Source: Isoetes taiwanensis (lineage: Eukaryota; Streptophyta; Lycopodiopsida; Isoetales; Isoetaceae). Taken from it: a stretch of 64,000 nucleotides of DNA. Below are positions 1-27,463 of the stretch, one piece after another; within the stretch, counting starts at the first letter, position 1, and the number at the start of each line of letters is the position of its first letter. Below the pieces are notes generated by a model. It saw nothing but the letters and a program-made list of their open reading frames with translations. It searched no databases and was not told the DNA's origin. The position numbers were made by a program, and so were the translations under genes. The stretch spans positions 10,236,546 to 10,300,545 of the forward strand of contig JAJEKV010000009.1 in assembly GCA_021234155.1 (NCBI GenBank), written 5' to 3'.

Positions 1-386
1 GCATGTGGGATAATTGGTAATGGGCCCACTTGCCTTTAAGGGCTAGGTGGCCAAATGTGCCCACATGGAAATGTGTGCACCCAAATGTGCTCACATGGAA
101 ATGTGTGCACATTAATGAATGTGTACATTGGAAAATGTGCACATTACTTGCACCTATGGGTATGGCCCACTTGGCATCAAGTGGCCACATGGAAATGTGT
201 GCCCACATTAATGTGTACATTGGAAAATGTGCACATTAATACTAATGCACATTCTTAGCAAGTTGCCCCCTAGGGCTACCCACTTGGCTATACGTTGGCG
301 ACACCGTCAATCGGGTGGCGGTATGCAGCGTGGCGTGGCGATTACAATATACGCCCGGGAGCGTATCGCGTCTTTGGAACGTCACA
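1..386 (-). repeat. 3' LTR, partial (U3 end only)
   Basis: This stretch repeats 11819-12205 with few differences and ends in GTCACA on the plus strand, so the LTR begins TGTGAC on the minus strand directly after a polypurine tract. Only the U3 part is present; the remainder would lie before position 1. It contains short repeats built on ACATGGAAATGTGTGC. Confidence 0.9.
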
Positions 387-1576: not shown

Positions 1577-2620
1577 TTAGGTGTCTTTGGCAAGTCTAGC
1601 TTGTAGGCTTGATTGCCTAGTTTCTCGACTATTACGAAGGTCCAGCCCCCACCTTGGAGCAAGCTTCTTGCAATTGCCGATCCTGAGCTTCGCCTGCTTC
1701 ACCTTAATCTTGAGCCAAACATCATCTCCAACTTCGAACTCTCTTACTGTTCGATGCTTGTCGGCGATGCTCTTTTGACGACTTCTTGCTGCTAACAGAT
1801 AGCCACGAACTTCCTCTACAAGCTGCTGCATATCGGCCAACATCTGCTGCGAAACTTCCACTTTTGACACGGGGTTGTGCCAAGTGTCTGGAGTTAGGCA
1901 CTGATAGCCGTAATTGATCATAAATGGCGACATTTGGGATGATTCCTGCTTGGTGCTATTGTATGCAAACTCCACCAAGTGAATAAATTCTTCCCACATA
2001 CCTTGCTTATTCCAGACATAGTTTCGTAGCATGTCCTCTAAAATCCTGTTGGTCCGCTCCGTCTGGCCATCCGTCTGAGGATGATATGCCGTGCTCATGG
2101 ATAGCCGTGCGGATCGCCGCAAAGAGGTCTTGCCAAAGGCGCTCATGAACTTCGGATCCCTCAGCCTGAGATGATCTCCTTGGCATGCCATGAAGCACGA
2201 AGATCTCTTTGGTGAAGAGCTTTCTTGTATCCATGGTCAGATCGTGGTTACGCAAGGCACAAAATGTGCCATCTTCGACAACTTGTCGACCACTACCATT
2301 AAGGCATCCTTGCCTCTCACTGTCCTTGGGAGTCCTGTGATGAAATCCATGCTGATTACCTCCCACTTAGCGTTTGGCACCGCTAATGGCTCTAATGCCC
2401 CTGGGATTCGAAGCTGCTCCGCCGTCTGGCGGCATAGGCGACATTCCTTGATGTAGCGAGCTATTTGCTTCTTCATTCTGGCCAATAATAGGCTGCTGCG
2501 CGACTTTGAAATATGTTTTCATGAATCCCGCATGGCCAGCTATTGGGCTGTTGTGCGTGTCGTGGAGGATCAACTTCCTTACACCTGATGATTCGGTTAC
2601 GCACAACTTGTTCTTATGGT
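1577..2620 (-). pseudogene. retrotransposon integrase (pol)
   Basis: This is a retroviral-type integrase that would insert the cDNA copy into the host genome. The N-terminal zinc-binding region starts near 2590 with LILHDTHNSPIAGHAGF (the HH half of HHCC). The catalytic core shows WEVISMDFITGLPRT near 2350 (first Asp), RDPKFMSAFGK near 2160 (second Asp) and YHPQTDGQTERTNRILEDML near 2080 (catalytic Glu region). The C-terminal part has VREFEVGDDVWLK and LAPRW. The domains lie in three frames, so at least two frameshifts separate them. It sits directly after RNase H, as expected for Ty3/gypsy. Confidence 0.92.
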
Positions 2621-3480
2621 ATAACAGGTTGCCTTCCTTCTTATAATGCTTGAAGGCCTCCCGCTCTTTATCTGTTCTAGCCTCCTTAGAAAGGCTTGCC
2701 CATACCTCCCTTGAAATCCACGTCCGTTGGCAAGGACTCTTCAATCCTCTTACCAAAGTTCTTTGGAGGCGTCGAAATTGCATTGCAATGCACTCTAGTT
2801 GTCGGGGGATGCCTTGAAAGCGCATCTGCTACCACATTGAGCTTCCCGGCTTGTAGACTATATCAAAGTCATATTCTTGAGGAACTCCATCCATCTCGCT
2901 TGCCTCAGTTAAAGGTGTGGTTTCGCGTGAATACATATTGGAGGCTCTGATGGTGGGTATCCAAGCTGGAACTTCCTTCCCAAGAGATAATGCCTCCATA
3001 TTCTTAATGCCCCGACAACCGCAAGCAACTCCGATGATCGTTGGGTAAGCGTCTCGGCGTCGTTCATCTTCACGGAATCATCACGCTACCACCGCTCTTC
3101 TTGCATAAGCCTTTTGTAGCTATCTTACTGCATCTGTTGCTACAAGCTTATCTTTCTCCGGTCCGGCGGTTAAAGGCTGGGGCTGTTGTTAGAGCTTCCT
3201 TCAACAATTCAAACCCCTTTTGGGCTTTCTTGTGCCAATGCTCTACCCAATCTTTCACCTTCTACGCCCTCGTCGGTGCGTTAACGGGGCTGCTATCTTA
3301 GCAAAGTTCTTCCGAACTTCTGTAGTACCACTACTAGGCCGAGGAAACTTCGACTTCATGCACATTCTTGGTAGCCCGACCCTTTGAATGGCGGCCTCAA
3401 TCTTGGCGGGGTGTTGTTGAGATGCCTTCTGGCTGAGATCACATGGCCTAGATACTCCACCTTTTACGTTTGCGGTGGCG
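2621..3480 (-). pseudogene. retrotransposon RNase H and connection region (pol)
   Basis: This lies between RT and integrase, where Ty3/gypsy elements encode the RT thumb/connection and RNase H. Near 3330-3260 the minus strand gives FLGL-type and KIAAPLT-like pieces that normally follow the RT palm. Near 2800-2690 there is text typical of the end of RNase H and the linker to integrase. The frame is interrupted several times, and I cannot point to a full set of the four RNase H acidic residues. The call rests mainly on position and short matches. Confidence 0.65.
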
Positions 3481-3990
3481 CCGACAACTTGGCGTACAAC
3501 TGGTGCCTCTTCAACTTCTCTAGCACTCTTCTCAAGTGTTGTACGTGCTCTTCAAGGGATCTGCTATACACCAAAATGTCGTCAAAGAAAACAATCACAA
3601 AGGTGTCGGGAACTCCCACGAAGATATCGTTCATGAGCCTCATGAGCGTTGCGGGGCATTTGATAAGCCGAAAGGCATTACTGTGAACTCATAATGCCCA
3701 TACCGCGTTCTGAAGGCGGTCTTATGGATATCTTCTTCCTTTATCCTGATCTGGTGATATCCCGACCTTAAGTCGATTTTGGAGAAGATCTTTGCACCTT
3801 GGAGCTGATCCATCAAGTCGTCTGATCTTGGGAGCGCGTACTTGTTCTTAATGGTGTGCTTATTCAACTGTCTATAGTCTATGCACATTCTCAAAGATCC
3901 ATCCTTCTTCTTGACAAAAAGAATGGGCGCTCCAAACGGCGAGACGCTAGGTCTAATGAACCCTAGGTCGAAAGCGGCTCCTGCCTAGCG
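3481..3990 (-). pseudogene. retrotransposon reverse transcriptase (pol)
   Basis: The clearest RT block is 3894-3640, with [20 protein letters not shown], the first catalytic Asp in [15 protein letters not shown], then [20 protein letters not shown]. In a second frame at about 3640-3540 the minus strand gives MNDIFVGV and then FFDDILVYS, the Ty3/gypsy form of the YxDD active site. All key palm motifs are therefore present, but they are split by a frameshift near 3640, at the FGLSNAP motif. Confidence 0.95.
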
Positions 3991-4816
3991 CTTCTTCAGC
4001 TCCGACAACTCCTGTGTTGTCATTCTATATGGAGCCTTACTTGTTGGCTTTGTTCCGGTTCGAGTGCTATCTGCTTTTCGACTCCCCCTATAAGGAGGGA
4101 GCTGCTTGATCTCATCTGGAAAGAGATCATGGAACTCCGTGATTAGCTGAGATACTTGCTTCGGCAACTTGCTGAGCGCGTTGTCTTCCTTGCTTCCTTC
4201 TGATTCCGGCTCACTAATCTCAAGCTTGAAGATGTATGCCACTTGCTGACTCTTGATGCACTTGAACAGCCGTTTAGAAGACATGCACTGCATAATGGGA
4301 ACAACTTCGTTACCTGTTATCTCAATGATCTTGCCGTCGGGCGTTGGGAAGGTCACCTTCCGCTTTCCACAGTCGATAATGGCCCCTGCTGGCCCAAGGT
4401 ACTCCATTCCTATGATCAAGTCATACTTTCCAATGCCCATTACTTCTGCTCCCATCACGGATATTAATCCACGGCAAGTCGATGTCGAAGTTAATTCTCT
4501 TGCCCGCCGATGCGCGCCTTCTTGCACCACTTGCTAAAATAACGGGTCTTGGCTTTGACTTTAGCGGCTTCAACTTCAACATCTGAACCATTCTGGGGGA
4601 TGCGAAGTTATGGCTACTTCCTGAGTCTATCAAGACTATGAATGACTTAGCTTTAGCCTTCCCTACTGTGGAAATTACCTTATACTGGCTCTCTGCTTGC
4701 TCTGTATCTATTGCGGCAAAGATATGACACTCACCCTGAATATAGTCGCGGGCCTCTTCGGCGTCGTCGTCCGACAGGGCTTCCCAATCTCCCAACTCCG
4801 CTAGAGCTGCACTCAT
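3985..4816 (-). pseudogene. retrotransposon aspartic protease and RT N-terminal linker
   Basis: FIVLIDSGSSHNFASPRMV at about 4660-4600 contains the DSG catalytic triplet of the retropepsin. It is followed by DLIIGMEYLGPAGAIIDCGK near 4420, the usual downstream flap/DLILGMDWL-type block of plant Ty3 elements. The frame continues to SKAPYRMTTQELSELKK, the standard entry to RT. Two overlapping frames share the region, so a shift occurs near 4430-4530. The protease would cut the Gag-Pol polyprotein. Confidence 0.9.
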
Positions 4817-6058
4817 GACGTAGGGGCAGTTTGCTGTCCTATGGCCCGGCTGGAAGCACCCGAAACTGTTGCTTTTCTATGCACTCCTGCCTCTTTTCCT
4901 TGGGCATTGCTTGCAAAAAGGATTACCTTTGCTTTGGAGTAGTTTGACCTTTCTGCTTGTCCTTGAAGGACACACGCTTCTTCTCCTCTTTGCTTCCCCC
5001 GGTTCCCACCATATTGTGTTCTAGCCGGACTGGGTTGGCTGCCACTGGGGCTATAGCTTCCTGTCGCCTTGCCTTTCTCCCGGAAGTACTTTTGCTTGTG
5101 CCCGCTATTAGGAGGTCCTCGACCCTTGCAAGCTTATAGCCTTGGATTACGCCCGATCTTGTCCTAGGGTTTATTGCTCTCACAAGCTTATGGATCTCCT
5201 CATTCACCCCTCGATATAGCTTTCTCTTGCATGCTTCTCTCCCAACCCGGCACATCTGACCTTAGCCTCATGAATTCCTCTGTATATTTCTGGCCGATTT
5301 GTTGCCTTCTTTGCAACCTGTAAAGCTTCTTTGCATCATCTTTGGACTTATGTTCCCTTGGAACGTAATGGCGCTTGAAGGCTTTAGCAAACTTTCTGAA
5401 CTTACAAGCATCCCTGCTTAAGCCGTGTGCCTTTGCATACCCCTTCCACCAAATCCGAGCGGCTCCTTTCAAGTTGGCTGTTGCAACTCTGCCTTTGTCC
5501 TTATCCTTCATGCCATAAGCATTTCCGTACTCGCTCATTTCGTCCAGCCATGCCTCTGCTTCTAAGCGACTGTTCTCTCCGAGAATTTCGATTCAGGGCC
5601 TTCCATACATTGCCCAGTGCGGAATCTACCTTCTTCTGGTAGTCGGAGGCCCTGGTATCTCTTTGTCGTCCCTCTGGGGTGTTCCTCTGCCTTCCCTCTG
5701 TTGGTTCCTGAGCCTGCTCTTCCTCTTCCTCAGAGTCGGAGTCTGAGTCTGAACTTGAGTCGGAAGATTCCGGACTGGGGGATCTCCTTCTCTTGCTCCT
5801 CTTCTTGTCCCTTCCTTCCCTCCGAGCTGATGCTTGCGGCAACTGAGCATTGCCCACCGAACCTACTCCTGCTTGCACGGACAGTAATGCCTTTATCTGC
5901 TCCAGATCCGTCCTTATCTGGGCTATCTCCTGCTCTGGGGTCATGGGTTCCCTATCTTCAAATAGGTTCCTTGCCGGGGGTGGTCTGGGCGGGGTTTGCT
6001 CTTCTATAAGGTCTCGTAGTTGTCGTTCCCCTGCGCTTAGCCCTCTAGCTGCATCCAC
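4817..6058 (-). pseudogene. retrotransposon gag with nucleocapsid zinc knuckle
   Basis: Gag forms the particle that packages element RNA. The N-terminal part (6058-5626) is rich in Pro, Arg, Ser and acidic runs, including a Ser/Asp/Glu stretch around 5780-5700. The capsid-like core (5538-5200) has AARIWWKGYAKAH and FAKAFKRHYVPREHKSKD, the W-W and F-x-x-x-F-x-x-x-Y pattern of plant Ty3 gag. Near 4860-4830 a knuckle reads CFQPGHRTANC, but its first Cys is not evident. The apparent first codon at 6058 is GTG with a stop just upstream, so the true start is uncertain. Three frames are involved. Confidence 0.85.
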
Positions 6059-6229
6059 AAGTGATTAATGGCTATATGGTTAGTTCCATTTGTTCTCTTG
6101 CATTGTTTATGTTTGTTGGTATAATTGTGGGGCAACATACATCAATAAAACATTTAAAGTGCAACAGAATTGTATTTATATATCATATAATATTTTAGGT
6201 ACAAAAGGTCTCCGGGATCAAGAGTCTAA
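6059..6229 (-). other. gag leader
   Basis: Short AT-rich stretch between the upstream auxiliary ORF and gag. No motif recognised. Confidence 0.4.
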
Positions 6230-7480
6230 CTAGTCTTGAAATCGCCGGTAAGACGGGTTGTCTTCAAGAAACTTCTTAACTTGGGCCGTCCCTACTGTGT
6301 GACCCAAGTTCCTGATGATGCTTGCCGGCGAGCGTCCCTGGATGGCTCTCACCAGGTCTTCTACCCTGCGGTCGGATGTAAGGGCCGCGATCCATCTGCT
6401 AATCTCCCCGACGCGTCGGTGGGGGATGGCAAAGTCGAAGAGGTCAAGTGCCATTGCCCTCTTGACTAAAACGGCATAGTCGACATTTGCTGCTATTCGA
6501 GCATGCACTGCTTAGAAGCACGAGAGTGCAATCAGCATAAACACTCCTTCTTAGCCTCACGGGGGTGAACTTGCGGTGGATTACCGCTATTCTCCCATCC
6601 ATCGCCAGTGGGTAAGTAGTACACGGCGACGCGACGTTATTGTGTGTCGCCGAAGTTTCTCCGCTTGTTTGGCCTCCGGTTACGTGGCCAGCGTACTCGT
6701 CGACCTCTACTTGGTGAGCTCTCGTAGTCTTCAATTGTCGCGGTCGAGCCTCACGAGGTCGATTCCTTCTCCTTTTGGCAAGGGTGATATTGGAGGACCC
6801 GGCATTAGGATACTCGTGGTCTTCCCACGGATCCCCATCTGCTCTTGGAGGCGAGGAACTCCTCCTCCTGTTGGCGACTCCGGCTTCGTCCATCAATTGC
6901 ACGATCTTTGCTATAAGCACGGATGTCAGAGGTCTCCCACCTGTAGGTGTCGGACTCCCTCACTTGGGCGGGAAGTCGATGCTCCCGGACGATGAAGTCG
7001 TCCGAGGTCGGTCTGCCGCCCGGTGGTGGAGTAGTTAGTCCAATCGAGCTCCCTCTCCCTACATTCGGGGAGGTTACGGATGTCGGCCGGGAGTAGATAC
7101 TCCTCTCGTCGATGATGATAGGGGCTAGGCTTGTGATGCCTAGCCCAAGTGAAGAGCAACTCGATGCCTGGCATCTCTTTCGAAGTTGATCAGCTCCTGC
7201 TCTCCTTGGCGCCGTTCTTAGTCCGAGTCGAGCTCCGTGTATCCTTCGTCGTCCGACTCTTCTTCGTCTTCTCTTGCTTCTGTTCTTGTTGATCTTTGCG
7301 GCGACATTTGCCCTTCCTTCGCTTTCGGCTATGGGATCTACCTCCATCGGAGGGGGATAGAGGTTGCCCCCATCGGGTTCTCGGCGGTGGGATAAGAAGA
7401 TGGCTAGAGGCGGCGGTGTCTGAGAAGTACTTGGTCTGTTGGTATCGGGGGACCATGTAGTCGGGTAACCTTTGCGCCTT
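6230..7480 (-). pseudogene. downstream part of the auxiliary H2A-like gene: basic linker and unknown C-terminal ORF
   Basis: Downstream of the H2A-like docking segment, the frame runs into a strongly basic tail at about 7350-7190 (for example SRKRRKGKCRRKDQQEQKQ). It then runs through several short overlapping frames, ending in a 92-residue ORF at 6508-6230. That ORF includes HARIAANVDYAVLVKRAM and FLEDNPSYRRFQD. The HAR, VD and VKR spacing loosely recalls the third helix of histone H4, but not enough for a call. No other family was recognised. It may be the C-terminal half of one long protein or the remains of a second gene. Confidence 0.4.
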
Positions 7481-7805
7481 GTTGATCAAGTACTTGGCGA
7501 TGTTGGGGACATCGCCCAAAGTACTGAAGGGGCCGGTGAGGGAGCGAAGTATCCTATGCAAGGGGGACTTGGACAAGGAGGGTCCTACCTAGCCTGAAAT
7601 TCCGCTAGCACACTATATCTTTGGGGTTGCGTTCAGTAACTTGGATGTCAATTTCTTTCACAAAGACTTGGAAGATGTCATTGACATCTGCCTCGATGGC
7701 ATGGGCAGCTTTGTACCATCGTCCAGAAATCAGCGGTGGCCATTGATCTAGCAAGGAAGGGAGTATCAAACGGATGCGAGCGCCTCGGGGAGCTGAAAGA
7801 TCGCC
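7481..7805 (-). pseudogene. histone H2A-like fold and docking segment in the retrotransposon
   Basis: On the minus strand from about 7800 an open frame includes GARIRLILPSLL, then WYKAAHAIEADVNDIFQVF and ERNPKDI. Placed on H2A, the spacing matches without gaps from the GRIARFL region to the VPRHI region. Shared residues include R-I in helix 1, Y-x-A-A in helix 2 and P-x-x-I before helix 3. After a frame change, TLGDVPNIAKYLINK (about 7525-7480) resembles the H2A docking segment (GGVMPNIHNLLLPK). Overall identity is low, so this is a divergent H2A-like protein, not a recent copy. Known H2A pairs with H2B in nucleosomes; any such role here is inference. Confidence 0.55.
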
Positions 7806-8045: not shown

Positions 8046-8110
8046 GTCTCATCACGTTATACCCCGATTTCTAAAATGTAGAAATCTGTCCTCGCCGCGA
8101 CGTGTGAGAC
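8046..8110. repeat. double inverted-repeat element, copy 1
   Basis: The outer arms are GTCTCA (8046-8051) and TGAGAC (8105-8110). The inner arms are GATTTCTA and TAGAAATC (8066-8086). The right side also has CGACGTG. The element can fold into nested stems and recurs four times in the auxiliary module. Confidence 0.8.
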
Positions 8111-8244
8111 ATGGGGTCCCCTAATTGGGCTAGGATTACTCAATTTAGGTGATCTAAGGCTGTAATTCTACTAATCTCATCGAATTAGGCGTAATTGACC
8201 CCTTACTTGGTCGATTTGGAGTCTGTTTTGGGCATTTTGGGCAT

Positions 8245-8310
8245 GGTCTCACCGTTAAGCCCGGCCCGATTTCTAAAATGTAGAAATCGTCTGGCGGCGA
8301 CGTGTGAGAC
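8245..8310. repeat. double inverted-repeat element, copy 2
   Basis: GGTCTCAC and GTGAGAC form the outer arms. The inner arms GATTTCTA/TAGAAATC are at 8268-8288. Copy 2 starts about 200 nt from copy 1, in the same orientation. Confidence 0.8.
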
Positions 8311-8422
8311 ATCGTCTCAATTTTGCTCCAAACTCCAATTTAATTAAAAGCGAAGGCTAGGGATCGATGTCTTGACCTATCTAAACTGGTTTGGACACTT
8401 TATTTACATAAAAAAATTTTCT

Positions 8423-8731
8423 TTATATTAACAAAATTTTATAGTCATTTACAAGGTTCAAGGCGTTCTCCCTTGATGTGTCTGCGGCAAGATACATATC
8501 ACGCCTCATGAGGGTAACCCTCTTGGCGTGCCTTTGTGCGGGCCGTTGAATCTTCAAAATGTTTCACGGTGGGCTTGGCCGCCTCTTGCAAACACGGCAA
8601 CATCTCGTCATCCGCGCGCATGTCCGTGTTGTATTCTTGAATGACTTCGCGGACCCGGATTTGGAGCGGCGCCGCGGGGAATCGAGGCCGTGAACTTTTC
8701 GGAAGTGGCGGATCTCCTTGAGTGCCCCTGT
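8423..8731 (-). pseudogene. histone H3-like core domain carried by the retrotransposon
   Basis: Three adjacent minus-strand segments match the H3 fold in order. About 8731-8684 reads TGALKEIRHFRKVHGL (compare H3 VALREIRRYQKSTEL). About 8680-8565, in a second frame, has VREVIQEYNTDMR (H3 VREIAQDFKTDLR), then LQEAAK and FEDST (H3 LQEAAEAYLVGLFEDT). Back in the first frame, 8535-8480 reads HAKRVTLMRRDMYLA (H3 HAKRVTIMPKDIQLA). Loop 1 has the canonical H3 length, not the longer loop of many CENH3 proteins. The frame ends at TAA 8425-8423. Two frameshifts interrupt the domain. The spread of conserved residues over all three helices makes chance very unlikely. Confidence 0.85.
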
Positions 8732-9563
8732 CTTCCTCCCTGTTTCTTCTTGCTCCTCTTCTTCCGGGTGCTTTCGTGGGGCCTTGGGTTTTGGTGGAGG
8801 GGCTTTAGTGTCTGGCTCTTAGGTTGGTGCCGCCTTCGATCGTTCTTACCCGGTGCTCACGGTAATAGGTGTTGTAGGCCTCCCACTTCGCCATATATGC
8901 GTTGTGCTCCCTCATTCTCTTCTCATAGACCTTTAAAGGGGTCTATCCGTAGAGCTTCCGCTGCGGCCGTGGGGCCTTGACCCTATCCCACGCCGGAAAT
9001 GGTGGGGGGCTTAAGCCACTGCCCGGCCTCCTCCACGCTCTTGGGCCGTGCGCTTTCGTGCACCTCTTCCTCTACAACCGGGGGGCTTTGAAGAGCTGCG
9101 CCCGTCTGCGCCCGAAGACGTAGTCTTGGTCCGAATGTCGTCGGTGGTGGGCGGGGTCTCCCCTCCCGGCGGCTCGTTGATGGCCGGGACCTTCGGCTCT
9201 CTTCCCAACCTTCACCCGGCTTCCTCTTGCACGCCTTGGCGGCCTTGGCCCTCCTCTTCTTGGGTCCGCCCGGTGTCTTCACGATCCTTTGATCTACGCT
9301 CCGTGGCGGCTCCTTGACTTCGTACTTGTGGGCCCAGGCGTGCTAGGTCGGCCTCCTCCTCCGGGGTGAGTTCCGCGGCTCTTTGCTCCTCTCCATTACC
9401 TGCTCCTCCTGCGGGTGGATCTCATCTGGGGTTGTTCTTGGCCTATGGGTGGGTTACTTTGTTCCCTCTGCTCCTCACGTGGGTTGGCGTCCCCTTGGTG
9501 TTGCTCCCTTCTGCTCGCTTTACGCCTCCTGCCGTTCAATTTCATTGAGGATCTACCGCTCAT
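8732..9563 (-). pseudogene. long N-terminal extension of the H3-like protein
   Basis: The likely start is ATG at 9563-9561 (MSGRSSMKLNGRRRKASRRE), about 290 nt after a TATA box. What follows is charged and low-complexity: basic at first, then acidic/Gln-rich (AELTPEEEADLARLG near 9380), Pro/Arg-rich, and near 8930-8860 an aromatic stretch EHNAYMAKWEAYNTYY. Just before the H3 core is a Lys/Pro-rich tail with PKPKAPRKHPEEEE; KAPRK also occurs in the H3 tail. The whole reading would be several times longer than an H3 tail (usually about 40 residues). At least three frameshifts are needed to read it through. No known domain was recognised in the extension. Confidence 0.5.
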
Positions 9564-9845
9564 GGCGTCGGCGTCGTCCTCCAAGATCTCTATAGTGGTG
9601 GCTCTGTCCGACCACGATTCCTCGCTTCGGCGAAGATCCGTCGGCGGAGGAAAAGCGTTCGAAAGAATCCTATGAACAAAGCGGGAGCGGGGGCTGGAGG
9701 ATCCGCCGGCTAGGCTTCCTTGCGATGCGCTTTGTGCGGGCCATCATTTTTCGGTTTCGTCGATTGGAGCTACGCGCGCCGGAAGATCGCCTTGACAATC
9801 TGGCGAAGTTCTCGGGAAGAACGGGAAAAATGGGAGGGTCCGGTT

Positions 9846-10114: not shown

Positions 10115-10182
10115 ATGTCTGCGACGTTGCGCCCGGCCGATTTCTAAAATGTAGAAATCATTCTCGGCGCCGACGTGTGAGA
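10115..10182. repeat. double inverted-repeat element, copy 4
   Basis: The inner arms GATTTCTA/TAGAAATC (10139-10159) are perfect and the right outer arm GTGTGAGAC is kept. The left arm is degenerate (ATGTCTGCGAC). Confidence 0.75.
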
Positions 10183-10379
10183 CCACCCTACTTTTTGGGA
10201 TGTTGGCTCATCAATTTTAGTCTTTTTTTTTACGTTTCTATTCTTTTTAACTGTTACTAGCTTAGCATAAACTACAAAAATGAGAAAAATTTTCTCATTT
10301 TTCGAGGTTTGAGGATCCTATCAAGTTAGTGCTCTTTGGGAACATGGCCGGTGCTTTGCTCTTGGTCTCCAAGAACATA

Positions 10380-10391
10380 GCTCTGATACCA
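10380..10391 (-). other. primer binding site, initiator methionine tRNA
   Basis: The minus strand reads TGGTATCAGAGC, complementary to the 3' end of plant initiator tRNA-Met. It lies 3 nt inside the 5' LTR, where minus-strand DNA synthesis starts. Confidence 0.95.
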
Positions 10392-11771
10392 CTTTGTGGC
10401 GTCCCCTACTGCGATCACGGTGCCCTCTCACCGTATACAAACAGGAGTTCATCCCCATACCAGCTCCATGCTAATACGGGGCCCTCCACATGACACTGCA
10501 ACCGTGGCGGGTTCCAAAGTGGGAAGAGTGGAAGGGTCATTGCACCCGCCTCCCTCGGGGCCTACCTAGTCATGGAAGCGTAAACATACATGTCGATGCA
10601 CATACATCAACATCATATGACCATCACGAAGGATGGCCCTCCACATATCTGCATAGACAAAGATCAAAGACATCACATAGGGAATCCTACCCAAGGCTCG
10701 GACTCAAAGGGATGACCGGCGGCTTGGGTCTCCGAGTTCATTGCGCATGCCAAATTCATGGCAATGGATTTGGCTGGCATAAGAACATGGCTTAGGGTTG
10801 TCCACTCCATCCGCCCCTCCCGTACACTTTGCGAGATAGGTTGAAGAACTTGGGGTTGGACCGTAGCTGCGGGATCATAGCCAAAGGGGCTATAGCCGGT
10901 TACATCTCCCCTGACCCGATGAGGCGGTAGGGGAGGTCTCTCTCCCACCGGATGATCAATGCCATAGCAAGCGGAGACTAGAGGACACCAACCGTCCGCA
11001 TTTTCGACTTTAACCCACTTGAAGGGAACTACCACCCGCGACCAGGTCCCACCCCCGGCACCACAACCAGCCGCACACGGGGCCTCGGGCTGAAACCCCC
11101 GGTGGCACCGTCGCCGAGCACGGCTTCTTATCCCCAACGGTGTCGAACTCATACTCGAGGGTGCACGCGGTCCACGAGTATTAAGCGCTAGTCCGCGGTG
11201 CTCTCCTGTAGACTTTACATCCCAGAGAGAGCAACCGCTATGGACACACCACCCTTATCAACCGGTCGACCCTAAGAACACAACACACAAAGGCTATTGT
11301 GCGCAGGGCCGCATCTATAGTGTGCTAGAGAGGCTAATCTAGGAGCATCTACTACCAAGCTTTAGGTCTCTACCCCCCTTCCCAATACAAGGAGTTCACA
11401 GAGATACATCATCCATATACATCACAGAAGAACTAAAGAACAAGATCTAATCTATATCATAGAGTTAGGTTCTTTAGTTAGAATCTGCTATCTAGAGTTC
11501 TAGAGGGCTGCTATGGGCAATCTAATAGGCTAAACCTACTGATTCAATGCCTAAAATAGGGTTTAGACTATCTAATTGGCCAAATACCTGATCCTTGAGG
11601 GGCTCCTCCCCGACCTGAGCTCGACCATCCTGCTGAAACGCTCGAATCTCGAGAAACTAAGGATGTAATTCTCCCAAGCAGAGTCTGGGATGCGGTTTTG
11701 GCTGTTGAGGCAGCCAAAACAGAGTTCTGAAACCCTAAAATCGAAAATTAGGTTAGTTAGGGTTTCCTACC

Positions 11772-11779
11772 CTATATAG
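11772..11779 (-). promoter_or_regulatory. LTR TATA-like box
   Basis: Minus strand CTATATAG, placed so that transcription would start near 11740 and include most of the LTR as R/U5. Confidence 0.45.
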
Positions 11780-11847
11780 ACAAGGGGGGTGGCTAGGGTT
11801 TCCAATTATCCCCTTTTGGCATGTGGGATAATTGGTAATGGGCCCAC

Positions 11848-12070
11848 TTGCCTTTAAGGGCTAGGTGGCCAAATGTGCCCACATGGAAATGTGTGCACCC
11901 AAATGTGCTCACATGGAAATGTGTGCACATTAATGAATGTGTACATTGGAAAATGTGCACATTACTTGCACCTATGGGTATGGCCCACTTGGCATCAAGT
12001 GGCCACATGGAAATGTGTGCCCACATTAATGTGTACATTGGAAAATGTGCACATTAATACTAATGCACAT
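11848..12070. repeat. short repeats in the LTR U3 region
   Basis: Repeated and partly inverted copies of ACATGGAAATGTGTGC, TGTACATTGGAAAATGTGCA and similar words. The same array is at 28-250 in the 3' LTR. Confidence 0.75.
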
Positions 12071-12205
12071 TCTTAGCAAGTTGCCCCCTAGGGCTACCCA
12101 CTTGGCTATACGTTGGCGTACACGTCAATCGGGTGGCGGTAATGCGGCGTGGCGTGGCGATTACAATATACGCCCCGAGCGATATCTTTGTCTTTGGACG
12201 TCACA

Positions 12206-12613
12206 CATGTTGTATCCGTAACCTAAAATTTAAGCTCACTCTTCTTACCTATAATTTTAATTTGTTACAATTTTTATAGATGAATCTTCCAAACCACCAG
12301 ACCTTCATGTGTTACGATCATTAGCATCAACTTCAAATGTTAAATTACATATCCTCTTTGCCTACAAAATGTTATGTTATGTCATGTAGTAAGCCATCAT
12401 CATCATAATTTTATTTCTTTTCCAATCGAACGTTTGTATACTAGAAAGCTCATTCTAGAAAGTTCTAAATAAGCCTATGATTTCATGGATTCCTATCATG
12501 TGCTTATGCCCCACAACCGATATTCACAGCCTAACGGCCTCTGCTTTTACTTTACTTTTACTTTTACTTTGCATCGAAGGCTATGCCCGGCAACGCCGGG
12601 CATCCGTCACTAG
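12206..12613. other. unique spacer
   Basis: AT-rich DNA between the LTR and the tandem array. No gene or repeat recognised apart from a short TTTAC run near 12550. Confidence 0.5.
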
Positions 12614-15433: not shown

Positions 15434-15904
15434 TTTCAAAGATTTGCCATGTATCGTAATGTTTTTGCATTTTGTCTTTCTCCAGCAGAACTGCACCTTA
15501 TGTTCCTCCTGTTTGTTTATCATGTTGGAATGTAGTAAAGCATAAATTGACAAGTTACATTTTATCTGTTCTCCAGGCTTCCATATTATTTACTCTCCCA
15601 CTCCGTAAAACTAGACAACACATAGGTATGGAAAGATGGCGCGCGTATGGAGACATCAAGGAGCAACATGTTAATTGAGGGCAAGATGAGCAACATGCTA
15701 TCTTGACTGATTAAAAAAAGTCACATTTCATCAGTAGCAGGCCCCCTTTGGATGTCTTTGTTGCTCTTATCTCTAGCTTCCTAGAAGTGCATTTCAACCA
15801 AAGGCATTAATAACTAGAGGTCAAAACAGCAGTGGTCATGGCCACCACATGATTCTGTGCATCTAATTGATTTGGAAGAACAATCTCTTCTTTGATCATG
15901 TATA

Positions 15905-16190
15905 TTACCAAAAAATGCAATCAATTGAATTGGAAAAGCACGTCTTTTGTCCTATATGTTGTAAAAAATGCCATGCTAAAGAGATTGCTATAGCCTGTAA
16001 ATGCGATGGCGCAATTAATTGAATGGGAGAAGCACTTTTTTTGTCCTATATGTTATAAAAAATTTCATGGTGAAGAGATTGCTACAACCTATAAATGCCA
16101 TGGCGCAACTAATTGAATGGGAGAAGCATTTCTTTTGTCCTATATATTATCAAAAATGCCATGGTGAGTAGATTGTTATAGCCTATGTTA
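15905..16190. repeat. about 113 bp repeat, near three copies
   Basis: Units contain GGCGCAAYTAATTGAATGGG, AGAAGCA, TTTTGTCCTATATRTTAT and AATGCCATGGTGA. They are conserved in copies 2 (about 24120-24400) and 3 (about 32330-32610). Confidence 0.75.
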
Positions 16191-16567
16191 AGAGCACCCA
16201 CTTGACATGCTTACTGTTGTGAAATTCAAATCCATGTTGAAGCAAATGCAATGCTCTGCCTAAGATGCAGTTGAGATGGTGCAGCCAATGTGATACACTA
16301 CCCAAAAAGATACAATTAATGTACTCCATTTGCAGGCCTGGCCTGATTCTACATAACTCCTCTGCTGCAATCTAATATATCAAATTGGTTAGATTGGATA
16401 GGATAAGAACTCATCATTTGGGAATGCTCATAAATCAATGCTTTCCGCGAAGAAGAGTCACTTTTAATGGTAGAAGCTGGTGCGCGCATTATTGTTGCAC
16501 ATATACATATGTGCCTTAATATGTAAGCTCTGAATTCTCATTTAGATTCATGGGTCTGTTTTTGCAG

Positions 16568-16692
16568 CACAGATTTGTGTTTATGGTGATAATGATATTC
16601 TAGAATATTATCTGTCTTGCAGCCTTGGTGTCTGTGTGCAAGCAGAAGTTTTCAATTTTGTAGCAAACACTTCAGTTGTGCAAGACGTAGAG
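16568..16692 (+). CDS. candidate internal exon, unknown protein (unit copy 1)
   Basis: A 125 nt open stretch lies between a good acceptor (TTTTTGCAG) and a GTATGA donor. In one frame it reads QICVYGDNDILEYYLSCSLG and then VCVQAEVFNFVANTSVVQDV. It is unchanged in the other two tandem copies (24779-24903 and 32989-33113), although nearby sequence shows differences. I do not recognise the family, and no partner exons could be assembled with confidence. It could be an exon of an old gene or chance, since the units are nearly identical throughout. Confidence 0.3.
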
Positions 16693-17182
16693 GTATGATT
16701 TTTTTAATTAAGATAGTTAAAACAGTTTCACAGGGAATGGCACAATGTTAGAACGCCTTCATTGAAATTTTTCCTGAAGACTGATTTGACCCTAACATTC
16801 TATTTTATAAAATTATTTCCTGATAACATGTAGCAGATTGACACTATTGCAAGAGTGCACATATATTTTTTGGCAGGCACACACCCGAGAAACTAAAGTG
16901 ATCTGGAACTGAGGTATAAATGTATACCATCCGAGTATTCAACATCATATATTCTACGACACCATGGCTGGTATTTCATTATAAGTAGTATATGATAGAG
17001 CATTTAAGCTACTTGATGAGTGATTGGAAGATTGAGCACAATGAATGCAATGTATAGTGACAGTTAATGCCTTTTTAAAAGCGCCAATGGCCGATAGATT
17101 CCAGGGCTTAATATTTTGTGATTTGGCCAAGAGAATCACATCCATTTGGAAAGAAATTTGTCGGGAATATTTTGATTTGTTA

Positions 17183-17365
17183 TACTTGGAGCAAGCCGGA
17201 CTTTGTCTTACTTCCCTTGGTGTTGGATCGTTATACTTGGAGCAAGCCGGACTTTGTCTTACTTCCCTTGGTGTTACTGAATAGCAAGTTGGATCGAGGT
17301 TAAGTCATAAGAGACTTTGTCTTAGTTCCCTTGGTGTTACTGAATAGCAAGTTGGATCAGGTTAA
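17183..17365. repeat. 45-60 bp direct repeats
   Basis: TTATACTTGGAGCAAGCC..GACTTTGTCTTACTTCCCTTGGTGTT is repeated twice and then in shorter form. It is also present in copies 2 (25388-25565) and 3 (33597-33785) with different numbers of pieces. Confidence 0.7.
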
Positions 17366-17729
17366 GTCCAAAACAGAACCATAAGAGAAGTATGGCCACA
17401 TCCAAAAGGACAACGGAAATAGTGAATAACTTCGCCACCGAACCTATGAATCCTCTCTTCACCTTTCCCCAAGACCTTTCACTAAACGTGGCTTGGCATA
17501 TAAGGCTCGCCTTATATGGCTATCTTCCCCTTTCTATCCTCTATGGGCTGCTTCCAAGAAGGCCTCCCCCAAGCATCTCCTACAATTCCAAGTCATATGT
17601 TCCAGTTTAATACCCCATATCTAAGGAGATGTTGGCAATAGCATGGTTTTATCAGGTTTAGGAGAAGATGTTACGCAAATAGCCCGATGATGGAACCTTT
17701 GAAAAATGGAAGCCTACATTTTGTTACCC

Positions 17730-17880
17730 AAAGTAAGTATAAGATGTTGAAGTGTAAATATAAGATGTTGTAAATGTTCGGATCTTTGGAACCTGAAGAG
17801 GAGTCGTAAATGTTCGAATCTTTGGAACTGTTGAAGAGGAGTTGTAAATGTTTTGATGCTGGAACTGTTAATGTTTTAAC
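17730..17880. repeat. about 42 bp tandem repeats (GTTGTAAATGTTC)
   Basis: Units carry GAAGAGGAGTTGTAAATGTT and GATGCTGGAACTGTT. The array is conserved in copies 2 and 3. Confidence 0.7.
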
Positions 17881-18556
17881 AGTTCCATAGCTGCAGCATC
17901 CTACAGGATAAATCATGGAGATTTTCTTGCACTACGAATATGGATACGCCCATGGCTATTATACATACTTTGTGCACTATTCATAAAAGAAACTAAATGA
18001 AGCTCCAGGTGCATGATTCGTGTTTCTCAGGTGGTTTATCTTTATACCATTTCGTGTATTCTCTAGCCTCAGACCTGGTGCTTGATGCTTACGTTTACTC
18101 TAGAATCCAGCTTGCCATTTTGTTCGACTTGCTATTTCTTTAATTTATGCTAGATTGTTTGATGTCTTAGCAGCCTTTCAACATTACCCTTTGCAAATGC
18201 TTAGTTCTTAAAGTCTGCATTTCCTTAGTTATCAATTTGCCTCTTTATTTATTTTATTGGCTGCACATGAAAATGTCTATGGAGATGTGTTGTATAATGA
18301 CCTTATTGGCTAAGATATATATTGTAGGAAGCGGCTCAAATTTACTTTTAACATGAAAGGAAATAGTTTGTGCACCATACTGATATAATTGAATGGAATA
18401 CTACATGGAATATACTGCAGGTATATATTGTAAGGAATTAGCTATATATATGCACCTGGTTCTAATTTGCTTCTAAGTGTTAAAAAGTTATTTGTTTAAC
18501 AAGAACAATTTTTTCAAATTAAGAAATATGAATCGTAAATTACCGCTGGCAAAATC

Positions 18557-18578
18557 ACATAGTATCTATACTATGTGG
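18557..18578. repeat. perfect short hairpin
   Basis: CACATAGTAT-CT-ATACTATGTG, a 10 bp stem. It is present in all three units (near 26759 and 34946). Confidence 0.6.
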
Positions 18579-18922
18579 CAGCTTAAATCTTACCATTAAC
18601 ATTCACTTGGATTAGTTGATTGACAATTTTTTGTTATAAAATGCCCTAGAAATTATTTATACATGAGATTTTGGTAGATGCACTAATGTGGTCCTATAAA
18701 ATGTTAAAAGTTTTACCCCATTCCAAAATATAAACTAATAACAGCAACGGAAATAAGTTCTTAAATATGGAGCATCATGTGGTAATTAGTAGAAATGGCG
18801 TTGACAGTTCTTAATTATGGAGCGTTACGTGGTGAATATTAGAAATGATGTAAATTCTTCCAACACTTGCAAACTTCTAAAGCATTTTCGCAATCTTCAT
18901 ATGTCAATCCATATGGTTAATC

Positions 18923-19204
18923 TTATGACATATCATTTTTAAATAACTTCACATACCACCCACCAACCCTCTGTAGTCGAATTCTTTTCCTGTATACATT
19001 TGTTATCTCAATAATGATGTTTGAAGGACTAGGAGATCTTACACTATTGTCATAATATTGACCATCATAACAAGTATGTTTCAAGACCCAAGGATGACAG
19101 AGAATCGCTCTATTGTCAATCTTCTTTGTGCCTATGTTACTAGATTTGTTTAGTTTTGGCAAAGATTCAATCGATATGTGGCTATGGGTCATCTCTGTCT
19201 CCAC
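18923..19204 (-). pseudogene. ORF downstream of the PPR fragment (possible E+ tail), copy 1
   Basis: A 93-residue minus-strand frame follows the PPR fragment. THSHISIESLPKLNK loosely recalls the E+ segment (H-P/S...I...L.KL) after PPR repeats. The rest, including CHPWVLKHTCYDGQYYDN, is not recognised and lacks a DYW ending. In copy 2 (27126-27323) a change near a CAG site shortens the frame. Probably decayed sequence. Confidence 0.3.
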
Positions 19205-19261
19205 CTTTATGGTACATTCACAATGGGCTTCCTTTCTACAAAGATGTAAAGATGTACCTCT

Positions 19262-19639
19262 TTAATAGTAGAATATAGCATTTTCCATCCTGTACAGATC
19301 CACATAGATATTTGACACAAGAATATACCCAATACCAAAGTGGGAGTCTAGACAAGTAAGTTGGCCAAAGCAATGCCTCCCTAATTGCACATTCCCATGC
19401 ATTTTTGAAGCAACAAATAAAGCCATCCATCCTGATATATTAGTTTGAATTGTGGACTCAAGTAAATATTTTGTCTCTTTGAACAATCCTGCACGAGCAA
19501 GGAGGTCAATATTGCAAGTACAGTGAGATATGCTAGGTATAATTTTATATTCACTCAGTAAATAAAAATACCATCCTTCATCTACTAGGCCAATAGGACT
19601 GCATGCAATAAATATATTGTTGAACGATGCTTCAACAGA
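19262..19639 (-). pseudogene. PLS-class PPR protein fragment (copy 1)
   Basis: The minus strand gives one continuous frame with the standard end of a plant PLS-type pentatricopeptide repeat protein. It reads FIACSPIGLVDEGW, then IIPSISHCTCNIDLLARAG, SGWMALFVASKMHGNVQLG and ILVSNIYVDLYRMENA. These match the last PPR repeats and the E motif of organelle RNA-editing factors. Only about 125 residues remain: there is no start, no upstream repeat array, and the frame ends after the E motif. It is a pseudogene fragment duplicated with the unit; copy 3 has lost it. Confidence 0.85.
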
Positions 19640-19831
19640 ATCGTGTTTGATTCAGAGTCGTGCTTGATTCATTGACTATCAAAGCAACTTTCATGATTAA
19701 CAAAAAAAATTTAATTTTTTTTTTCTCCAATACAGAACGCGGCCACGATAACATCATCTCTTCAATATCTTCATAAAAGCTTACTGCAACATCATCTCTT
19801 CAATACCTTTATAAAAGCTTAATGCACTATA

Positions 19832-20140
19832 ATGATGCAGGATAAAGGATATGTCCAGAATGATCAGCTGGGCAAAGAGTATGATTTGCTGTTGTGCAAA
19901 TCATGTTTTGATCAACTAGTAGGTGTGAAACCCTATCAATGCCGCCCAAAAATTTGCTGTTTTGACCTAGAAAAGTTAACCAAGTATGAGCACATCATAC
20001 ATCATCACAGAGATCCCGGAGAGAGCTTTTTCCAACGCAATAAAAAACACTCAAAACACAGTCCGTATTCAAAACTTATGATAAGAACCATATTATCATC
20101 AAATCTACACGGCATGCACTTTGCGAAAAGGCTAGATTGA
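19832..20140 (+). CDS. Cys/His-rich ORF, unknown (copy 1)
   Basis: The 102-residue frame follows a poly-T tract and ATACAG acceptor-like site. It has Cys22, Cys25 (CKSC), Cys37, Cys42-Cys43 and a His cluster (His54, His57-59), a spacing that could bind zinc. Copy 2 (28034-28342) is the same except near its C-terminus, where a small change replaces the last residues. It matches no classical zinc-finger spacing I know. It may be an exon or a chance ORF preserved by recent duplication. Confidence 0.35.
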   Translation: MMQDKGYVQNDQLGKEYDLLLCKSCFDQLVGVKPYQCRPKICCFDLEKLTKYEHIIHHHRDPGESFFQRNKKHSKHSPYSKLMIRTILSSNLHGMHFAKRLD

Positions 20141-21538
20141 AAAGTACAAAAGTAGATATCTATCTTGATAGATCTGGGTCAAATTATTTGTCAATCAAAA
20201 GATCTCTACATAAGTTTCCAATGAGCCCAAGATCATCAGAATCTAACCTCTGTAGCTTAAGCTATGAGCGCAGAAACAATTGACATTTTCTCTCTCTAGT
20301 GCTTCTTTTCTTTATCTATTTTTAGTGACTTAGATATTATCAATCTTGTTAATTTGGAATTTTTCGGTTTGGCTAAAAATATTTTTGGAATTTTTCTTAT
20401 GTCGATTTCCTAAGATTATAAGGGTTCTGGCTGCCGAAAAAGCTTTCCGATTATCCAAATATCATAGAATTTTTCTATATGATTTTCGCTTCTTGGATTT
20501 CTATCCTTAATCCTGTCGACAGGGCATGCATGCATCTCGGTGGCACCTATGAGGATATATTCGAAGGGATTTTGTTAGCGTGGGCAAGGAGCACATGAAG
20601 AATTTTTTTTTATACACGGGGAGTTTTTTGTTCTTTTCTTTTGGCGATCAAGGCTTCCATGTTGACCGGATGCAAGACATTGAGAGCATGTCTAGAAGTG
20701 AGGCTATCATATTTTGGCATTACAAGCCATTACTCCAGAAGCTTAGATGCTTACTGGGCAAGCCAGTTACAAAGTATGCATCAGACAAAACCTATCTTTA
20801 ATAGAGGTATGTTTCAGCATTTGTGCTAGCAGAGCTTTAGAGTACTCTTAAGATCCTTTTAAGCTTAGAATGCCAACAAATAACGGTGGGCCATTTTCAT
20901 GCAAGACTGAAGTGCAGCAAATAGCAAAATTGCTTTTTTAATTTCAAGCTTGAAACCATTTTTATTTGTTCTTTGTCCTTATCTGTTTTGTTTCTATTTG
21001 AAGGTCCAGTAGCTCATTAATAAGGTGGCCATAAAATGTTAAGATCTTTTTAAGCTTAGAATACCAACAAATAACGGTTGGGCCATTTTCATGCAAGATT
21101 GAAGTCAAACAAATAGCAAAACTTTTTTTTTTTTTAATTTCAGGCTTGAAACCATTTTTATTTGTTCTTTGTCCTTATTTATTTTGTTTCTGTTTGATAC
21201 AATAACAACATCTGAAACATACTGCATGGACTATATCAGATAAAATAGAATTAATGTCGCATTAGTTCTAAGCATGAAGGCACCAATGTCCAAGGTTCTC
21301 TTCAATATCTAAGCACTTGACTTGGTTACTTCCTCCACAGATGCATTTGAAGCGCTTGGTTCAATAAAAACAGTCAATTGTCAATGCATGTGTAAAAGCA
21401 GAATGGACACTGGAGCTTAGCATTATCCCAGCATTATCCAGTACCTAAAATCTGGTGCATATGCTCGGTAGACATTTGGTCGCTTATTTCAGCCAATATC
21501 TGATTGCTTTTTAGAATGCTCAAGAAGTTTTGATTGTA

Positions 21539-22583
21539 GAATGGGACTCGCAAGAAACCAACAAAGCGCCCGATAGATAGGCTTCTCATTCATCTCAGCA
21601 GATTTTCTACAATGGTGGACAGTGGGTAGCCGCACACATGCGAACTACCCACGAAAAATAAAGGGAAAATCCAATTATATCATTTGGACCCCAAAACAAA
21701 TACAATGCTAATAGATGAGTGGTCGATGTACTGCCGAAAGCTTATCACCGGATTAAAAAACCCGCCCTTTTCGGGTTTTCGAGGAAAAACCCTAGTGATA
21801 AGCCTTCGAGGGGGGCTTAGACAAACGTAAAGGCATAGAATCGCTCCCAAAAACCCCCGCATGGAGAAGTCGAAACGGATGCCGCTCGCCAACCTGTACC
21901 TGCACATCACCAACACAACAAACGAGAAACATACCAGAGAATAGCAACACCCAAATGGTGGAAAAAAAGCATCACCCAAATGGGTGGAAAAACATGATAA
22001 AATGAACTTGTACAATAAACAAAGAAGGGGGAGGGTGGGTTCAAAGAGAATAAGGTATGCTGGCGAGAGAGAAGAGGAAGCGCCGATGAGACGCGGGATC
22101 TGGCTTGCTACGCTGAAATAGCGAACTCCCAACCCAAAACGGGCATCGCGCCGCCGCATGCATGCATGACATGCATGCTCGTCCCATTCTAGAATGGCGA
22201 TCCGATGTCTCGGATCGATGCGATTCTAGAATGGGACTCGCAAGAAACCAACAAAGCGCCCACTACCGAGAAACTTCCTTACAAACTAGGATCAAGGGCG
22301 AGGTCACGGGGCGAGGCCAAAGGCCGATAAAGGATAGCAAGAAAGATCGCCAAATTGGCTAAACCAGTGGGGAAGAAGCCCCTCCCCGCCGGAAACAATT
22401 CAAAGAGAATAAGGTACTGCTGAGAGAAGAGGAAGCGCCGATGAGACGTGGATGCAGAAACGCGCCTGAAATAGCGAACTCCCAACCCAAAACGGGCATG
22501 CGCCGCCCGCATGCATGCATGACATGCATGCTCGTCCCATTCTAGAATGGCGATCCGATGTCTCTTGGATCGATGCGATTGTA
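21539..22583. mobile_element. 1.05 kb insertion with internal duplication (copy 2)
   Basis: It is absent from copy 1, where GATTGTA is single. Here it is flanked by GATTGTA at 21532-21538 and 22577-22583, a 7 bp target-site-like duplication. The left end GAATGGGACTCGC recurs near 22232. A block of about 190 nt (AATTCAAAGAGAATAAGGT through the ATGCATGCATGACATGCATG stretch and a CATTCTAGAATGG palindrome) occurs twice, at about 22039-22231 and 22388-22576. The long antisense frames inside it show no known domain. Type of element not assigned. Confidence 0.75.
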
Positions 22584-24778: not shown

Positions 24779-24903
24779 CACAGATTTGTGTTTATGGTGA
24801 TAATGATATTCTAGAATATTATCTGTCTTGCAGCCTTGGTGTCTGTGTGCAAGCAGAAGTTTTCAATTTTGTAGCAAACACTTCAGTTGTGCAAGACGTA
24901 GAG
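24779..24903 (+). CDS. candidate internal exon, unknown protein (unit copy 2)
   Basis: Identical in sequence and splice sites to 16568-16692. Confidence 0.3.
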
Positions 24904-27125: not shown

Positions 27126-27323
27126 TTATGACATATCATTTTTAAATAACTTCACATACCACCCACCAACCCTCTGTAGTCGAATTCTTTTCCTGTATAC
27201 ATTTGTTATCTCAATAATGATGTTTGAAGGACTAGGAGATCTTACACTATTGTCATAATATTGACCATCATAACAAGTATGTTTCAAGACCCAAGGATGA
27301 CAGAGAATCTGCTCTATTGTCAA
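27126..27323 (-). pseudogene. ORF downstream of the PPR fragment, copy 2
   Basis: Shortened counterpart of 18923-19204. A small change around 27309 and a larger one near 27365 alter the frame. Confidence 0.25.
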
Positions 27324-27463
27324 TCTTCTTTGTGCCTATGTTACTAGATTTGTTTAGTTTTGGCAGCATTCACTGATATGTGGCTATGGGTCATCTCTGT
27401 CTCCACCTTTATGGTACATTCACAATGGGCTTCCTTCCTACAAAGATGTAAAGATGTACCTCT

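Follow-up and report, generated by a model that had tools for sequence, protein, structure and literature searches.

In the genome of Isoetes taiwanensis, a lineage of Ty3/Gypsy long terminal repeat (LTR) retrotransposons carries, as the first open reading frame (ORF) after the primer binding site (PBS), an ORF that ends in a histone H3 domain. The usual order in these elements is PBS, ORF1 (with H3), ORF2, and gag-pol. One copy lies in the stretch analyzed here (the window; 64,000 nucleotides of contig JAJEKV010000009.1, assembly GCA_021234155.1, forward-strand positions 10,236,546 to 10,300,545), which contains a complete Ty3/Gypsy insertion on the minus strand, its 3' LTR running past the window edge. 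The window ORF1 is itself not an intact gene; open copies were found elsewhere in the same genome, and the lineage, which belongs to the chromoviruses, is abundant and has a conserved H3 ORF. Copies are referred to below as classes A, B, and D, and as class C, the window's own subfamily. A preliminary description of the window had proposed a captured, diverged histone H3 inside an LTR element, and this was supported, the open copies scoring well over the Pfam cut-off.

The H3 match and the element in the window

The H3-like strings quoted in the preliminary description were all found in place on the minus strand, with shifting frames. The H3 match of the window copy (8725-8463, minus) is broken by frameshifts and closes with RRHIKGER at 8463. 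A 700-nt stretch was aligned in a frameshift-tolerant way to canonical H3 and scored 150 (147 in the traceback version), and 60 dinucleotide shuffles of the stretch gave a mean of 34.2 (sd 5.3, maximum 49) in the same alignment, which rules out chance similarity to H3. Loop 1 had the canonical H3 length in the traceback alignment, as had been described. Among three scanned ORF pieces, the Pfam Histone profile matched one (8429-8563, E=0.005, 17.5 bits), under its cut-off of 26.4 bits, and the other two gave no Histone match at E<=1; the profile search, named earlier as a check, thus fell short for the window pieces and succeeded for the open copies (see below). In the PDB search, the piece 8502-8804 matched H3.3 at E=0.0011, the piece 8429-8563 gave E-values of 0.075 or higher with chains that were for the most part H3 or CENP-A, and the piece 8567-8818 matched no histone. 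The domain had been placed at 8423..8731; the fold does lie there, but the ORF starts far upstream, at 9747, where it reads MMARTKRIARKPS, resembling the H3 tail ARTKQTARKS (7/9 residues identical to ARTKQTARK).

The surrounding element (Table 1) has two LTRs starting with TG and ending with CA, together with a target-site duplication (ACATG in the window copy; GTGGC in another copy, L021). The 5' LTR was 92.7% identical to the left flank of the window (L050) over 1,566 columns, with 44 mismatches and 51 gap openings, and 97.2% identical to window positions 1-386 over 390 columns. The PBS, TGGTATCAGAGC, which we take to be of the initiator-tRNA-Met type, was found where it had been described (10391-10380), whereas the gag frame opens at 6064 and not at 6058; the H3 match is on the coding strand between the two, as claimed. 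Window matches over the Pfam cut-offs were capsid (Retrotrans_gag, within 5592-5203), protease (RVP_2), and reverse transcriptase (RT; RVT_1), while the integrase zinc finger (H2C2) was below its cut-off. No chromodomain was detected by Pfam scan in the window ORF 1580-2236. At the end of its pol, a copy of class A (L011) has the domains SH3_Tf2-1 and Chromo (PF00385, scoring 32.9 bits against a cut-off of 25.1), and this element is therefore a chromovirus that also encodes H3. Pfam domains of gag, protease, RT, RNase H, and integrase were in the Ty3 order in L011 and L021. The LTRs and the fixed position of the ORF rule out a host H3 gene misread as part of an element. Rfam and tRNA scans gave no matches. 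A direct repeat of ~50-60 nt (88-92% alike) was seen at 8063-8112, 8253-8312, and 10125-10183, i.e., before ORF1 and between ORF1 and ORF2.

Table 1. Features of the H3-carrying element in the window (window coordinates)
Feature	Position	Strand	Details
Target-site duplication ACATG, 5' flank	12206..12210	-	same 5 bases after the 3' LTR, outside the window
5' LTR	10395..12205	-	1,811 bp, TGTGACGTCC...CGCCACA
PBS TGGTATCAGAGC	10380..10391	-	sequence motif after the 5' LTR
ORF1	8463..9747	-	several frameshifts; start resembling the H3 tail, then a long low-complexity stretch, then the H3 fold
H3 N-tail-like start MARTKRIARK	9715..9744	-	MARTKQTARK in open copy L043
H3 fold	8463..8725	-	ALKEIRHF, VREVIQEYNTDMR, LQEAAK, FEDS, HAKRVTLMRRDMYLA, RRHIKGER
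ORF2	6233..7743	-	MATADFW to RRFQD; broken; between the H3 ORF and gag
gag-pol region	1577..6064	-	broken
Polypurine tract AAGGTGGGGAGAA	387..399	-	adjoins the 3' LTR at position 386
3' LTR, 5' part	1..386	-	remainder left of the window, to G000:C1100:10235110

Copies in the genome and conservation of the H3 domain

The genome searched comprised 1,658,258,908 bases in 1,110 contigs. The Pfam Histone search gave 8,704 first-look candidates, of which the best 150 were scored. The first 15 rows matched profile positions 2-122, and the eight of them that were fetched were the canonical host H3 of 136 amino acids; the other 135 rows scored 144-155 bits, in frames of 108-494 amino acids. Matches with H3 in a frame of at least 444 amino acids were picked from the best 150, and 10 kb around each was fetched (20 loci). 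Owing to this selection, every one of the 20 had an ORF1 that closes, or nearly closes, with the H3 fold. In our reading, the PBS motif was ~600-760 nt before the ORF1 start in 14 of the 20 loci, ORF2 pieces of at least 180 amino acids followed in the same sense in 17, and gag or pol frames of the same minimum length in 15 (not in L013 and L017-L020). By their N-termini, 13 loci were assigned to class A (MPRFKLT and close variants), six to class B (MEEVK, METVK etc.), and one to class D (MANTKSAPD). In L011, ORF1 is followed directly by gag-pol, apparently without ORF2, and in L014 (3867-3932) the ORF1 frame continues 22 codons beyond the usual end of the H3 fold.

A search with RT, in which places were selected regardless of H3, gave 28,421 first-look candidates, of which 150 were scored at 97-100%. 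These were paired with 257 listed H3 places (host H3 rows and duplicates dropped). A listed H3 was located upstream in the correct orientation in 42 of the 150 RT places, at 4.8-5.25 kb in 35 of them, and control orientations gave 2. Four more RT places paired with class D ORF1 matches, so that at least 46/150 had H3 or ORF1 upstream; this is a lower bound, since only a few hundred of several thousand candidates were listed. Six unpaired RT places were sliced (1 kb at the expected position), and two of them had an H3 fold in broken frames. The search with class D ORF1 gave at least 101 scored matches (79-100% identity, each covering at least 364/411 residues), of which ~69 were stop-free by manual count.

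For class C, a DNA search with window positions 8400-9800 gave 2,050 first-look candidates; the 40 scored were the window itself and 39 matches at 82-90%, 38 of which span nearly the whole query. As the query was the ORF1 stretch itself, they show copy number only. Among 20 fetched copies, L043 (87% DNA identity to the window ORF1) was the sole one with a fully open frame of 435 codons; it has MMARTKQTARKPS near the start (MMARTKQTARK), ends in ...ALKEIRHFQKSYGLLIPRAPFQRLVREVIQEYNTDMRVTDEMLLCLQEAAEAHLVKHFEDSTACTVHAKRVTLMRQDMYLARHIKGERP, and has the H3 fold at its terminus. None of 2,000 shuffles of this stretch stayed open. Its surroundings (L049) include a PBS, ORF1, an ORF2 of 507 amino acids, and a gag-pol frame that stays open as far as the locus extends; over 8.7 kb, their identity to the window was 91.2%. 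The preliminary description had proposed a search for other full-length copies and had named copies lacking the segment as evidence against its claim; H3 or ORF1 is upstream in at least 46/150 RT places, and the slices of four of the six sliced places showed no H3.

The ORF1 proteins of classes A, B, and D are 411-459 amino acids long. A conserved N-terminal part of ~200 residues, which had no Pfam match, is followed by a linker that is charged or rich in Q, then by a basic stretch, and finally by H3, present from around residue 37 to its end. The open copies scored 147.2 (A), 143.6 (B), 142.2 (D), and 94.5 (C) bits with the Pfam Histone profile. The class A protein L013 (147.2 bits) had H3.3 as its best PDB match (E=4.7e-50, residues 341-450). 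Identity to host H3 in the fold was 86/103 (A, L013), 84/99 (B, L026), and 88/99 (D, L027), i.e., 83-89%, and 53/88 in class C. R69, R72, R83, C110, H113, K115, R116, T118, D123, L126, and R128 were unchanged in 13/13 A, 6/6 B, 1/1 D, and 1/1 C copies, and Y/F41 and T45 were present in all 20 A, B, and D copies. Substitutions were R42 to K in B, K64 to R in 12/13 A, R63 to C in one A, and E105 to S in A and to G in B and D. Residues 86-90 read AFAIL in 12/13 A (AFAVL in one), THAIL in 6/6 B, and TFAIL in D, vs. STAVL in the host copy compared. We take the kept residues to be contacts to DNA, H4, and the second H3, and residues 86-90 to be a chaperone-site motif. Classes A, B, and D have the canonical loop 1 length and the contact residues of a core H3.

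The canonical H3 N-tail ARTKQTARKSTGGK was found in none of the classes A, B, C, and D. ARTK was present in 0/20 A, B, and D copies and ARKS in no A or B copy; class D has one ARKS, not at the tail position. In class C, exact H3 residues 1-9 were found at the start of 2/20 fetched copies (L043 and L047), and ARTKRIAR in L031, L046, and the window; ARTKQTARK continues with P (ARKP) and is ~325 residues from the fold. Within the limits of these copies, the H3 tail is replaced in A, B, and D and set ~325 residues apart from the fold in C. Because the tail motifs are absent, A, B, and D would be unable to carry the usual H3K9 and K27 marks.

Selection was estimated as median ratios of nonsynonymous to synonymous substitution (dN/dS; Nei-Gojobori). 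In the H3 part, dN/dS was 0.033 in class A (78/78 pairs, median dS 0.80) and 0.014 in class B (15/15 pairs, dS 0.55); in the N-terminal part, 0.108 (49/78 pairs usable) and 0.160 (15/15); and in the linker, 0.186 (68/78 pairs usable) and 0.115 (15/15), respectively. These values are biased low, since histone score and open frames guided the choice of copies. Between classes dS was saturated, leaving 0 A-B pairs and 1/19 pairs with L027 usable for the H3 part. Within these limits, no other part of ORF1 is as conserved as the H3 part, which keeps nearly all of the presumed contact residues. The preliminary description had proposed to test for an intact ORF under purifying selection; the low dN/dS of the open copies fits such selection, subject to the bias given above, and the window ORF is broken.

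Both LTRs were found in 7/8 elements with fetched flanks, and both target duplications that were read (2/2) were present. Identities of the LTR pairs (mismatches/gap openings) were 92.7% (44/51) in the window element, 92.6% (66/45) in L049, 96.7% (29/21) in L021, 94.9% (46/16) in L016, 96.7% (17/15) in L009, 92.0% (67/52) in L022, and 91.1% (55/48) in L028; L013 had no LTR pair within the stretch fetched. Five further loci were checked within their own 10 kb: L011 had a match of 359 columns, and L010, L017, L019, and L020 had none. Divergence by mismatches only was 1.7-4.4%, which suggests fairly recent insertions.

The seven LTR pairs had 0.35-1.16 gap openings per mismatch. Compared with L043, the window and 19 other class C copies had 20-51 indels in 1.3 kb, and 0-4 stops in codons comparable to the L043 frame. 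The assembly has been reported as 1658.30 Mb in 204 scaffolds and 909 contigs, built from Nanopore reads with gap filling, with LTR elements making up 15.72% and Gypsy elements 10.7% of it; the word 'histone' does not occur in the main text of that report, as far as it was available (PMC8566536). Given the excess of indels over stops, the LTR gaps per mismatch, and this type of assembly, much of the class C frame breakage is probably assembly noise. The window frameshifts would then not simply be decay, as the many gaps probably point to sequence error, and a dead pseudogene, considered for the broken window copy, was judged unlikely on the same indel excess and LTR gaps, although some of the breaks may be decay.

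ORF2 is ~440-510 amino acids long (window 6233-7743, L049:2827-4347 on the minus strand, L015, L021, L026, and L028), and Pfam scans of three copies gave no match. Between classes C and A, the pol proteins were ~59-60% identical. In tblastn searches of A and B ORF2 against class C (9.4-kb target), L021 matched at E=7e-16 and L026 and L028 at E~1e-9, and three of the six (L009, L015, and L019) were not significant; hhalign of the C and A/B ORF2s gave a probability of 97.6 with 24% identity over 425 columns. These results support homology of the ORF2s, though they are very diverged. When the alignment of A, B, and D (A1) was compared with C, only the H3 part of ORF1 aligned (probability 99.6, profile columns 347-437). 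In the midpoint-rooted tree of the H3 part, A, B, and D formed one clade (93/98) beside host H3, while C was apart on a long branch and not with the two CENH3-type rows, the only such rows in the tree and neither of them the host CENH3. Either the layout ORF1(H3)-ORF2-gag-pol may predate the split of the subfamilies, or H3 may have been gained twice, and the tree is compatible with both.

ALKEIRHFQK, LLIP, and RVTLMRxD are common to class C and Arabidopsis CENH3, and capture of a CENH3 was therefore considered. It was not supported by loop length, scores, or the tree: loop 1 of the element H3 is without the CENH3 insertion, and class C scored 265 with host H3 vs. 205 with Arabidopsis CENH3. 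In a scan for the host CENH3, host H3 and element H3 were among the best 150 rows, and no CENH3 was recognised there.

The H3 could also be a passive hitch-hiker or pseudogene, i.e., a chance, functionless transduction of host H3 or an assembly chimera. LTR elements do capture host genes (PMC7264820, in the part available), and the window and 19/20 fetched class C copies are frame-broken. We nevertheless regard this as very improbable, as the H3 is common to diverged subfamilies in which ORFs are open and dN/dS is low, holds the same position in the RT-selected places (at least 46/150), and recurs in the class D ORF1 matches (at least 101 scored, ~69 stop-free by the manual count), and as ORF2 is homologous between C and A/B (hhalign 97.6) with the H3 ORF upstream in both.

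What the H3 ORF may do

The reading that we somewhat favor is that the H3-bearing ORF1 protein forms a pair with the H4 of the host and becomes part of nucleosomes or of complexes with H3 chaperones, so that the element's own N-terminal domain would be placed on chromatin. The most likely use would be twofold, namely tethering of element complexes to chromatin, and nucleosomes on element DNA with a tail that escapes the usual host marks. A partner role is conceivable for ORF2. More tentatively, and rather doubtful to us, the lineage may build its own nucleosomes from a tail-replaced H3, together with the integrase chromodomain, and such private chromatin could evade silencing or steer integration.

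Several points weigh against the nucleosome reading. The conservation of H3 is overestimated to an unknown degree, since the 20 A, B, and D loci came from the 150 best Histone scores. The anti-silencing idea would draw on the missing tail motifs and on nothing else. In class C, loop 1 keeps its length and most contacts are retained, but R63 is replaced by P, T45 by D, and K122 by Q, and the HRYRPG segment is missing; the nucleosome contacts of this class may therefore be altered. No ORF2 piece of 180 amino acids was present in three of the 20 loci (L011, L024, and L025), and for four of the six unpaired RT places the 1-kb slice taken at the expected position contained no H3, so some elements may be without H3.

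The protein could instead serve as a tether only, the H3 fold docking via H4 or chaperones and the N-terminal domain bringing the integration complex, with no anti-silencing role. The fusion of a conserved N-terminal part to H3 and the L011 chromodomain fit this, and since chromodomains are targeting modules, chromoviruses are known to steer integration via chromatin (PMC12786077, in the available text). The chromodomain, however, already provides targeting, and we consider a tether alone unlikely. An improbable role is packaging, in which the H3 protein would compact or protect element RNA or cDNA in virus-like particles and not act in host chromatin. There is a basic stretch ahead of the fold, and viral histone doublets make nucleosomes in vitro (PMC9145170, available part), but the kept H4, H3, and DNA contact residues exceed the needs of a nonspecific packer, and no partner histone was detected by Pfam in the scanned copies of ORF2, gag, and pol or in the window pieces.

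More improbable still is a decoy or mimic, with ORF1 occupying H3 chaperones or, in class C, offering ARTKQTARK to writers and readers, and thereby blunting silencing. The class C start is identical to H3 residues 1-9 in L043 and L047, and the motif at 86-90 is altered in A, B, and D, near the TAIL/SAIL of DNA-virus H3s (PMC9145170). Against this, P and not S follows K9, A, B, and D are without ARTK, and the DNA contacts R83 and K115/R116 would not be needed by a pure decoy. More generally, a retroelement in which an H3 is retained and its tail replaced offers a natural experiment on the role of the H3 tail in transposon silencing, and on the ways in which nucleosomes could be exploited directly by a mobile element. 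The idea is testable in a large family whose LTRs indicate fairly recent activity.

Relation to known systems and neighboring sequences

The elements share with plant Ty3/Gypsy chromoviruses the LTRs, the 5-bp target duplication, the tRNA-Met-type PBS, the polypurine tract, the order gag-protease-RT-RNase H-integrase, and the integrase C-terminal SH3 and Chromo domains. They differ by two additional ORFs ahead of gag, of which the first has histone H3 at its end. In the available text of two reviews of chromoviruses and LTR elements (PMC12786077 and PMC7264820), no histone ORF is named, and 'histone' has no occurrence in the main text of the latter. As with other captured ORFs of plant LTR elements, a host-type regulatory domain is kept by a Ty3 lineage as an additional ORF, for instance the AlkB-type demethylase ORF of an orchid Ty3 lineage (PMC12786077, same portion); in the present elements, it is a core histone that was captured.

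Single H3 genes are known from DNA viruses, including xenomavirus, Dishui Lake phycodnavirus, Sylvanvirus, and others (PMC9145170). These too are one H3 without other histones, often with lengthened or divergent tails, and their fold identity to the H3 of a possible host is 73-87% (PMC9145170). Their chaperone motif is TAIL/SAIL, compared with FAIL/HAIL in the element H3. In the elements, unlike in these viruses, H3 is fused behind an element-specific part of ~340 residues and is repeated across a retrotransposon family; the word 'retrotransposon' is absent from the main text of PMC9145170 in the part available. CENH3/CENP-A differs from the element H3, whose loop 1 is without the CENH3 insertion and whose class C does not join CENH3 in the tree. 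While core histones are thus known from DNA viruses, no report of a histone-encoding LTR retrotransposon was found in the open-licence literature searched, and the earlier statement that no H3-carrying retrotransposon family had been described stands to that extent.

The protein database search with A1 gave 5,436 matches at E<=1e-5, and the best 120 of them cover 21-48% of its first row, in keeping with matches to the H3 part alone; weaker full-length relatives of ORF1 could rank lower. Protein searches with the broken window protein yielded none of 625 candidates in one search and four H3/CENH3-like proteins in a second, and IMG/VR scans found no relatives.

Elsewhere in the window, a tandem unit of ~8.2 kb occupies 12614-35339 (starts at 12614, 20344, and 28546; ~97-98% identity). 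Its first two copies carry the same ORF of 129 amino acids (19262-19651 and 27464-27853), the first with a weak PPR-type E-motif match below the cut-off. Between 15434-27153 and 23648-35339 there were 150 mismatches and 84 gap openings. Of the latter, 78 were indels of 1-2 nt and only 17 had a homopolymer context; the differences were clustered, as in patchy assembly error. Two overlapping ORFs at 49017-50703 match DUF7869, and ORFs at 52166-53034 look DUF7869-like by eye, with no Pfam match for 52501-53034. A lactonase-like gene (7-bladed propeller) at 37582-38828 runs across two overlapping frames, likely owing to another single frameshift.
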